Assembly: GCA_905233695.1 (NCBI GenBank)
Contig: CAJODN010000003.1
Coordinates: 63,542 to 127,541, forward strand
Reading direction: 5' to 3'
DNA from: an uncultured Lachnospiraceae bacterium
GTDB lineage: Bacteria; Bacillota; Clostridia; Lachnospirales; Lachnospiraceae
DNA: 64,000 nt
The position numbers and the translations under genes were made by a program. Positions 43,815-46,648 of the stretch are shown here, piece after piece. The notes below the pieces were generated by a model that had not been told where the DNA came from, ran no database searches, and saw only the letters and a list, made by a program, of their open reading frames with translations. Positions within the stretch are counted from its first letter, which is position 1. Every line of letters starts with the position of its first letter.

Positions 43815-45239
43815 ATGGATAAGGTAGAGAATCAGGAAGCATTCGAGGATGAAGATTTCTTCGAAGAGGAAAATGCAATTGACGAAATTAAGGGTAAGGT
43901 AGAAGGCGCTAAGAAGGATATTAAGGAGAAGAGAGAGGGTATCCACGAGAAGCTTTCGGAGAGAAGAGAAGCGGTTAAGGAGAGACTCGGCGAGAGAAGA
44001 GCTGAGCTTATGGATAAGTTCGCATCCGACAGTGCTGACTTAAAAGATACATTTTCAGAATATCTGGATACGGTCAGAGCAGACATATCGGCCAACAGAA
44101 CCGGATTCAATGTTCAGGATCAGGAGAAGAACAGGTTCATGCTTGAAGGGGATCTTGCGGAAGAAGGATACGACTGGTGGTGGCATTCATTCACCGGATA
44201 TAATAAGAAGACAGGCGAGCCGAAGACGTTCTTCATAGAATATTATCTCATTAATCCCGCTCTCGGCGGAAGCGACGTTGTATACGGTCAGCTTCTTGAG
44301 AATAAGGAAGTGGGAATCAGACCTTCGTATATGATGGTTAAGGCAGGAGCGCTCGGAGAGAAGCCGGTTCAGCTTCACAGATTTTTCCCATGGGATGAAG
44401 TAGAAGTAAGCAAAGCCGTGTCATTCGAAGTTAAGGCCGGCGACTGCTTATGTAACGAGAACAGGATTGTGGGAAATGTTAAGCTTACGAAGAAGGAAGC
44501 AAAGGAGCATCCCGAGTATATGTGCGACGGCGGAAGCATGTCGTGGGATCTCTTCATTGATAAGCAGGTTGCATTTAATGTGGGCGTCGGAACAGATAAG
44601 GCTGTAAGAGATGTTGCCAAGTATGAAATGGCATGGCACGCAGAAGGAATTAAGAGTGCTTACGGCGGAACTGTTACCCTCGGTAAAGAAGAGTACGTTA
44701 TTCGTCCCGACGATTGCTACGGATATGCCGATAAGAACTGGGGTAGAGATTATACAGTGCCTTGGATCTGGCTTTCATCTAATAACCTTGTCAGCAGAAT
44801 CTCAGGTAAGAGACTTGAGAATTCCGCATTTGTAATCGGTGGAGGACGCCCCGTTGTGGGATCTGTGGACTTGGAAGGTCAGCTTCTCGGAGCGGTGTGG
44901 TATGAAGGACAGCCCTTTGAATTCAACTTCGCTAAGCCACTCACACTTCCGAAGACACAGTTCAGAGTCGTGGAAGGTAAGAATAAGGTTACATGGAAGA
45001 TTATTCAGCAGACACCCGCAACTAAAGTATATACTTCCATTGAGTGCCAAAAGAGCGAGATGCTTAACAATAATTACGAGAACCCCAACGGCGATATCGT
45101 TCACAGTAAGCTGTGGCTCGGCGGTACGGGTACAGGATACGTTAAGATATATGAGCGTTCCGCTGACGGTCTTAAGCTTGATTGGAAGCTTCTTGACTAT
45201 ATCGAAGTTGAGAACTGCGGTTGCGAATATGGCGAATAA
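43815..45239 (+). CDS. Tocopherol-cyclase-like domain protein with coiled-coil N-terminus
   Basis: A 474-residue soluble protein. Residues 15-100 are charged and heptad-like (KEKREGIHEKLSERREAV), a probable coiled coil. The rest matches the tocopherol cyclase-like fold (Pfam Tocopherol_cycl, from memory): WWWHSFTGYNKKTGEPKTFF near residue 118, then GYADKNWGRDYTVPWIWLSS near residue 310. Bacteria without tocopherol carry such proteins with unknown role; lipocalin-like binding of a hydrophobic ligand is possible. AAGGAGGGG gives a very strong ribosome binding site. A TATAAT at 43758-43763 may be its promoter, but no good -35 is visible. Confidence 0.65.
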   Translation: MDKVENQEAFEDEDFFEEENAIDEIKGKVEGAKKDIKEKREGIHEKLSERREAVKERLGERRAELMDKFASDSADLKDTFSEYLDTVRADISANRTGFNVQDQEKNRFMLEGDLAEEGYDWWWHSFTGYNKKTGEPKTFFIEYYLINPALGGSDVVYGQLLENKEVGIRPSYMMVKAGALGEKPVQLHRFFPWDEVEVSKAVSFEVKAGDCLCNENRIVGNVKLTKKEAKEHPEYMCDGGSMSWDLFIDKQVAFNVGVGTDKAVRDVAKYEMAWHAEGIKSAYGGTVTLGKEEYVIRPDDCYGYADKNWGRDYTVPWIWLSSNNLVSRISGKRLENSAFVIGGGRPVVGSVDLEGQLLGAVWYEGQPFEFNFAKPLTLPKTQFRVVEGKNKVTWKIIQQTPATKVYTSIECQKSEMLNNNYENPNGDIVHSKLWLGGTGTGYVKIYERSADGLKLDWKLLDYIEVENCGCEYGE

Positions 45240-45321: not shown

Positions 45322-45480
45322 ATGTTGCCAAAGACAGTAGGTGCGAAAGCGTAATTTTGGCTATTAAGTCAGTCCCTACCGAGGAACAATCATTAAGATA
45401 ATATAGTGCTTCTGTGTGAAGAATTATATTGTAAATGTATGATTATTACCCTCTTCGTCTTATGGCGAAGAGGTTTTTTG
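45322..45480 (+). ncRNA. Ribosomal protein L10 leader (autoregulatory mRNA element)
   Basis: The 5' untranslated region of rplJL holds the conserved L10-binding pattern GCCAAAGACAGTAGGTG...GTCCCTACCGAGG at 45327-45384, in which the AGACAGTAGGTG strand pairs with CCTACC through a kink-turn. It is followed by a second hairpin around 45401-45430 and an attenuator stem at 45450-45473. Free L10-L12 complex is known to bind this element and favour termination, matching r-protein supply to rRNA. The remainder of the 320-base gap (45240-45284 and 45481-45545) shows only the promoter and the ribosome binding site region. Confidence 0.88.
45450..45479 (+). terminator. Attenuator terminator of the L10 leader
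   Basis: CCTCTTCG (45450-45457) pairs perfectly with CGAAGAGG (45466-45473) over an 8-base loop and is followed by six T residues. It lies about 80 bases before the rplJ start codon and is the expected off switch of the L10 leader. Confidence 0.88.
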
Positions 45481-45559: not shown

Positions 45560-46234
45560 ATGGCTAAAGTGGAACTTAAGCAGCCCATCATTCAGGAAAT
45601 CTCTGATAACGTTAAGGATGCTCAGTCAGTAGTCGTTGTGGATTACCGCGGACTAACAGTTGCTGAGGATACACAGCTTAGAAGAGAGCTTCGTGAAGCA
45701 GGTGTTACTTATAAGGTATATAAGAACACAATGATGAACTTCGCATTCAAGGATACTGATTTCGAGAGTCTTAAGGATGTACTTTCAGGCCCAAGCGCAA
45801 TTGCAATCTCTACTGATGATGCAACAGCTCCCGCAAGAGTAATTTCTAAGTTCGCGAAGGAAGCTCCCGCACTTGAGATTAAGGCCGGTGTTGTAGAAGG
45901 AACTTACTATGATGCAGACGGTATGAAAGCTATCGCATCTGTTCCCTCAAGAGACGAGCTCTTATCTAAGTTGCTTGGAAGCATTCAGTCACCTATCGGT
46001 AACTTCGCAAGAGTTCTTAAGCAGATCGCTGAGAACGGCGGTGCTGAAGGCGCTGACAGCGCAGCAGAGGACAAGGCTGAAGAGAAAGTAGAAGAGAAGG
46101 CTGAGGAAGCTAAGGCTGAGGAAGCTAAGGCAGAAGAGCCTAAGGAAGAAGCCAAGGCAGAAGCTACAGAGGAAAAGGCTGAAGCTAAGGAAGAAGCAGC
46201 TGAAGAAAAAGCTGACGATGCAAAAGAAGAATAA
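45560..46234 (+). CDS. rplJ: Ribosomal protein L10 with long acidic/lysine tail
   Basis: The stalk base protein that binds 23S rRNA and L7/L12 dimers. Residues 1-165 are a normal L10 (VVVDYRGLTVAEDTQLRREL, VYKNTMMNFAF, PIGNFARVLKQIAE). The protein then continues for about 55 residues made almost only of Ala, Glu and Lys (EEKVEEKAEEAKAEEAKAEE), giving 224 residues against the usual 165-175. The tail lies after the helix that binds L12, so it may extend the stalk. AAGGAGG stands before the ATG, and the L10 leader controls the gene. rplL follows after 33 bases. Confidence 0.96.
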   Translation: MAKVELKQPIIQEISDNVKDAQSVVVVDYRGLTVAEDTQLRRELREAGVTYKVYKNTMMNFAFKDTDFESLKDVLSGPSAIAISTDDATAPARVISKFAKEAPALEIKAGVVEGTYYDADGMKAIASVPSRDELLSKLLGSIQSPIGNFARVLKQIAENGGAEGADSAAEDKAEEKVEEKAEEAKAEEAKAEEPKEEAKAEATEEKAEAKEEAAEEKADDAKEE

Positions 46235-46267
46235 TATTTAATCAGAATAATAATGGAGGAAAAGAAA

Positions 46268-46648
46268 ATGGCTAAGATGACTACAGAAGAATTTATTGAA
46301 GCTATTAAAGAGCTTAGTGTATTAGAGCTTAACGAGCTTGTTAAGGCTTGTGAAGAAGAGTTTGGCGTATCTGCAGCAGCAGGTGTTGCAGTTGTAGCAG
46401 CAGGCGGAGAAGCAGGCGGCGCAGGCGCTGAAGAGAAGGATGAGTTCGATATCGAGCTTACAGAAGTAGGACCTAACAAGGTTAAGGTTATTAAGATTGT
46501 AAGAGAGGCTACAGGTCTTGGACTTAAAGAGGCTAAGGGTGTTGTTGACGGAGCTCCCGGAATTGTTAAGGAAGGCGTTGACAAGGCAACAGCTGAGGAC
46601 GTTAAGGCTAAGTTAGAGGCTGAAGGAGCTACTGTAACTCTTAAGTAA
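46268..46648 (+). CDS. rplL: Ribosomal protein L7/L12
   Basis: The flexible stalk protein that recruits translation GTPases. The N-terminal dimer domain ([21 protein letters not shown]), the Ala/Gly-rich hinge (residues 36-55) and the C-terminal domain with [20 protein letters not shown] are complete at 126 residues. The track's start at 46253 lies inside the ribosome binding site: that ATG is part of ATGGAGGAAAAG, so the true ATG is 46268. The gene is followed by a terminator and not by rpoB, so the common rplKAJL-rpoBC arrangement is broken here. Confidence 0.97.

Follow-up and report, generated by a model that had tools for sequence, protein, structure and literature searches.

P0 (uL10), the L10 homologue of the eukaryotic and archaeal stalk, ends in a flexible, alanine-rich acidic tail. 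Among bacteria, the L10 of Thermotoga maritima (1zav) has a longer C-terminus than usual, the extension being a lengthened L12-binding helix α8. Low-complexity regions of bacterial L10 orthologues were described in 2019 by a survey covering over 1,500 proteomes from prokaryotes and phages; of the 32 L10 regions, 20 exceeded 70% A+E (PMC6821194). As set out there, the great majority of such regions in ribosomal proteins are C-terminal, they are surface-placed in the authors' reading of ribosome structures, and their function is given as unknown; in the portions of the survey that deal with L10, the regions come without Lachnospiraceae detail and without a charge or selection test (PMC6821194). 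Our literature searches turned up no specific account of an L10 tail in the Lachnospiraceae. The L10 described here carries a real tail that belongs to this published class, and it varies an essential protein only modestly. The earlier note on this DNA had implied novelty, a claim that is not supported, given that such tails are frequent across the family and that the class had been reported (PMC6821194).

The gene, rplJ, lies at 45560–46234 on the forward strand of the window (the whole stretch of DNA analyzed, 64,000 nucleotides), which comes from the 1.7-Mb, 45-contig draft genome of a gut bacterium with Lachnospiraceae as its nearest named relatives. It starts with ATG, its open reading frame is clean, and it encodes a ribosomal protein L10 (uL10) of 224 residues, as identified by family models and by alignment to solved chains. 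Residues 1–157 are those of a normal bacterial L10, with a net charge of −2. The Pfam model Ribosomal_L10 (PF00466) matches residues 5–100 (103.3 bits against a cut-off of 22.8) and the NCBIfam L10 model (NF000955) matches residues 6–159 (194.6 bits against a cut-off of 85), together covering the globular domain and α8; no Pfam or NCBIfam profile model matched past residue 159. Helix α8 (residues 131–158; 45950–46033, forward strand), which we take to be the expected L12-binding helix, was predicted as helical by AlphaFold2 with block pLDDT values of 84–89. Solved bacterial L10 chains, which have 162–180 residues, align to residue 165 at the furthest, and none of those found in our structure comparison has such a tail. 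The protein thus shares its whole core and α8 with bacterial L10 (uL10; for example the 166-residue chain in 3j9w), and unlike that chain it continues for about 60 residues past the usual end.

The setting of the gene is likewise that of a bacterial rplJ. Upstream is an L10 leader (RF00557; 45310–45488, forward strand; Rfam score 71.3 bits against a gathering threshold of 44, E = 2.4e-9), expected to be the site of L10(L12)4 autoregulation; a terminator-like hairpin and T-run can be read directly from the sequence at its 3′ end, at about 45451–45480. Directly downstream is rplL (46268–46648, forward strand), encoding an ordinary L7/L12 of 126 residues that matches TIGR00855 over its full length as well as Pfam L12_N and L12. 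Between the rplJ stop codon and the rplL ATG at 46268 lie 33 nt that include GGAGG, a good ribosome-binding site, in agreement with the normal stop and spacing that the earlier note had described.

From ENGG at residue 158 to residue 224 (46031–46231, forward strand), the protein consists of a 67-residue acidic tail of low complexity, ENGGAEGADSAAEDKAEEKVEEKAEEAKAEEAKAEEPKEEAKAEATEEKAEAKEEAAEEKADDAKEE, composed of 25 E, 19 A, 11 K, 4 D, 3 G, and one each of N, S, V, P, and T. A, E, and K account for 55 of the 67 residues, and the net charge is −18, versus −2 in the core. An A/E/K tail of about 55 residues had been noticed before; the observation was correct, and the strictly repetitive part comes close to that length. 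Like the regions of the survey, as far as they are characterized there, this tail is C-terminal, presumably surface-placed, and mostly A and E with K as the third commonest letter, and it differs from them in being richer in K (16%) and long (67 residues) (PMC6821194). Counted along its full length, the tail has A+E at 44 of 67 (66%) because of its lysine content, and it falls outside the subgroup above 70% A+E.

Tails of this kind are widespread among close relatives and patchy beyond them. Comparison of rplJ lengths in related Lachnospiraceae, proposed in the earlier note, revealed A/E/K tails of 42–67 residues in 8/8 sampled genomes of the genus; since all eight carry the same kind, the tail is more than a chance feature. 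In a sample of the family with one genome per genus, 7 of the 25 genera had tails of at least 20 residues, and the rest ended 4–12 residues after the helix. A larger set, biased to close relatives, contained tails of up to 79 residues (L071), mostly A/E/P rather than A/E/K, so that tail length across the family runs from 4 to 79 residues. In genomes sampled from the order's other families, L10 usually ended within 4–16 residues, and two tails reached 23 and 31 residues. The L10 core tree (weakly supported) requires a minimum of 11 switches between long and short tails, which argues that the tail was repeatedly gained or lost. Given these changes and the many genera that lack it, the tail is not essential across the family. 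One practical consequence is that the size of L10 serves poorly as a marker within the Lachnospiraceae.

We asked what is held constant among the long tails, using a set of 81 tails of at least 20 residues (3,427 residues in all). Net charge was negative in 81/81 (−4 to −22) and scaled with length (Spearman ρ = −0.94). A+E averaged 68%, and the tails of relatives averaged 10% proline. Arginine was absent from all 3,427 residues, as against 174 lysines, though arginine is one transition away, and only four of the 81 tails contained any of F, W, Y, I, L, or M. Over 14 close pairs, pN/pS came to 0.14 for the tail and 0.09 for the core, the tail value being biased low because low-complexity sequences tend to be aligned like letter with like among their A and E residues; the commonest replacements in these pairs were A/E, A/P, A/V, and A/T. 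The one informative gap-free pair, L068 and L070, pointed in the same direction, with seven silent changes and one replacement. Judging from these comparisons, what is conserved is chemistry and not sequence: small and acidic residues, no arginine, and almost no large hydrophobics. A link to L12 length was weighed and rejected: the correlation (ρ = 0.57) takes no account of kinship, and L12 differs by only a few residues. Separately, cysteine occurs in 34 of the 81 long tails, often in a fixed context directly after the GG at the start of the tail (GGASECEAP or GGASACEAP, as in L090, L103, and L111, among others), a conserved residue in tails that are otherwise simple.

We consider it probable that the protein is an ordinary L10 bearing a lineage-typical, disordered, acidic low-complexity tail, which would form a flexible, negatively charged brush at the stalk base and play a mild role. 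Since the tail begins right after the L12-binding helix, its place on the ribosome would be at the base of the L7/L12 stalk, from which it would hang. Its length would drift as short repeat units are added or dropped in frame, with selection keeping charge and a flexible composition rather than an exact sequence. Its role would be electrostatic or entropic at most, helping the crowded stalk to stay soluble and clear of the rRNA instead of offering a specific binding site, and it might add to the local field sensed by translation factors. The earlier suggestion that the tail charges the stalk fits as a property of the sequence (net −18 here, and negative in every long tail). In structural terms, an AlphaFold2 run with 42 family sequences gave a core pLDDT of about 95, the helix at 131–158, and a mostly coiled tail with pLDDT 41–57 past residue 160, consistent with, rather than proof of, an intrinsically disordered tail.

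The main rival to this interpretation, to which we give somewhat less than an even chance, is near-neutral repeat expansion, in which the C-terminus tolerates slippage in GCN, GAR, and AAR codons and selection merely purges harmful versions (basic or hydrophobic), leaving the tail with no positive role. It predicts the same anatomy as the brush and differs only in what loss of the tail would cost; our estimates for a brush with a mild role and for no role therefore overlap and are not to be added to one. The range of lengths across the family, the many gains or losses, and the many relatives whose L10 works with an end of 4–7 residues are as expected if the tail is dispensable. So are length changes by repeat units: the tails of genus relatives L024, L027, and L020 (52, 47, and 42 residues) are set apart by exact in-frame gaps of 15 and 30 nt. 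The present tail contains 2.3 perfect copies of a 15-nt tandem repeat, AAGGCTGAGGAAGCT (46097–46131, forward strand). L004 and L005 are identical. On the other side, the repeat codons are largely scrambled, the longest exact DNA repeat in the tail being 20 nt versus 14 nt after synonymous-codon shuffling (p = 0.048), and tails of 42–67 residues have been kept in 8/8 genus members despite the energy cost in a protein that is presumably highly expressed. The earlier proposal that repeat slippage may vary tail length between strains finds support at the level of close species, whereas recent slippage explains little of this tail, whose DNA repeats barely exceed the shuffled control. Repeat gain and loss happens, and most of this tail is old and maintained at the protein level.

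A more ambitious version of the brush, which we regard as unlikely, would have selection maintain the tail in many Lachnospiraceae as a lineage-specific component of their translation machinery: a tunable negative brush at the stalk base that modifies how translation GTPases are recruited or released, its strength determined by the number of repeats. Whatever its effect, the clean natural series of tail lengths (4–79 residues, with every long tail acidic) offers a probe of how ribosomal low-complexity tails function, a question that the 2019 survey, in its discussion of these regions, left open (PMC6821194).

Quite improbable, in our estimation, is that the tail is a single α-helix of the ER/K type that lengthens α8 and pushes the stalk outward. 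A composition of A, E, and K favors helix, and AlphaFold draws a short, low-confidence helix at 162–179. However, the balance of attractive minus repulsive charge pairs at i+3/i+4 was −25, versus −7.6 ± 5.9 in shuffled sequences and worse than 99.9% of them, which is the opposite of the E–K spacing above chance that marks ER/K helices; moreover, a GG break follows α8, and the relatives' proline is at odds with a helix. The earlier idea that the tail extends the stalk is accordingly not supported, given both this charge pattern and the low-confidence, mostly coiled prediction.

We give still less credence to the tail as an extension of α8 that supplies docking sites for more L12 dimers. It does follow α8 directly, and some bacteria bind a third or fourth L12 dimer through a longer α8. 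The L12 dimer sites on α8 are hydrophobic, however, and this tail has a single valine and no I, L, M, F, W, or Y; in addition, the core ends much as does the 166-residue L10 of Bacillus. The same composition separates the tail from both extensions introduced at the outset. Where T. maritima L10 has a longer helix, this L10 has an acidic tail, probably disordered, that is devoid of such hydrophobics. With the P0 tail it shares an alanine-rich, acidic, and presumably flexible C-terminal stretch on the stalk's L10 homologue, but its end (..EEKADDAKEE) has no aromatic or aliphatic residue, which rules out a P0-like hydrophobic tip for binding factors, and a common origin is unsupported.

That the tail is an artefact of sequencing, assembly, or gene calling is a negligible prospect: the genome is a 45-contig draft and repeats may mislead assembly, but independent assemblies from the genus (8/8) and beyond carry the same kind of tail, and the stop, spacing, and rplL are clean. 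The earlier note had held that the tail is not a frameshift, and this is borne out by the genus relatives, which have equivalent in-frame tails in place of a frameshifted normal end.

Several other origins were considered. Genome-wide drift toward low complexity is not indicated, in that a search of the bacterium's own genome with the tail returned no second ribosomal protein bearing one; S16 lacks a tail, and the acidic end of S2 is short. The only other match, a weak one, was an acidic stretch in an unrelated open reading frame (L052:10-2031, contig C12), which begins with an FtsA/pilus-ATPase-like region and contains EEVAEEKAEETPEEASEEADDATEE as an acidic repeat linker. Derivation from the neighboring L12 hinge was not supported by comparison of the tail with the next 600 bases, which hold rplL; the longest exact DNA match had a median of 10 nt and a maximum of 16 nt, values that stand without a shuffle baseline. 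A 199-residue antisense frame is open over the tail and rplL (45985–46584) because GCN, GAR, and AAR codons give no antisense stops, and it carries no evidence of being a gene.

Finally, we note some features of related and neighboring sequences. Repeats of this kind can disturb alignment and assembly. In L097:107-733 (JAFXGR010000032.1), the reading frame of L10 continues directly into the C-terminal domain of L12 at a GGCGGCGCAGCTGAAGAA stretch, and a frameshift then follows in the L12 part; the fusion reflects either an rplJ–rplL deletion or, more likely, an assembly fault in a metagenome-assembled genome. In the window, upstream of the rplJ leader, is a 474-residue open reading frame (43815–45239) with a charged N-terminal helix region, a long C-terminal part, and a weak, below-cut-off match to an Apolipoprotein-like Pfam model. 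The rplJ–rplL pair is isolated, with this frame and a GH3-like gene upstream and a PurF-like gene downstream, and nusG–rplK–rplA lies on another contig (L133), followed by an unrelated gene, such that the usual rplKAJL cluster is split.
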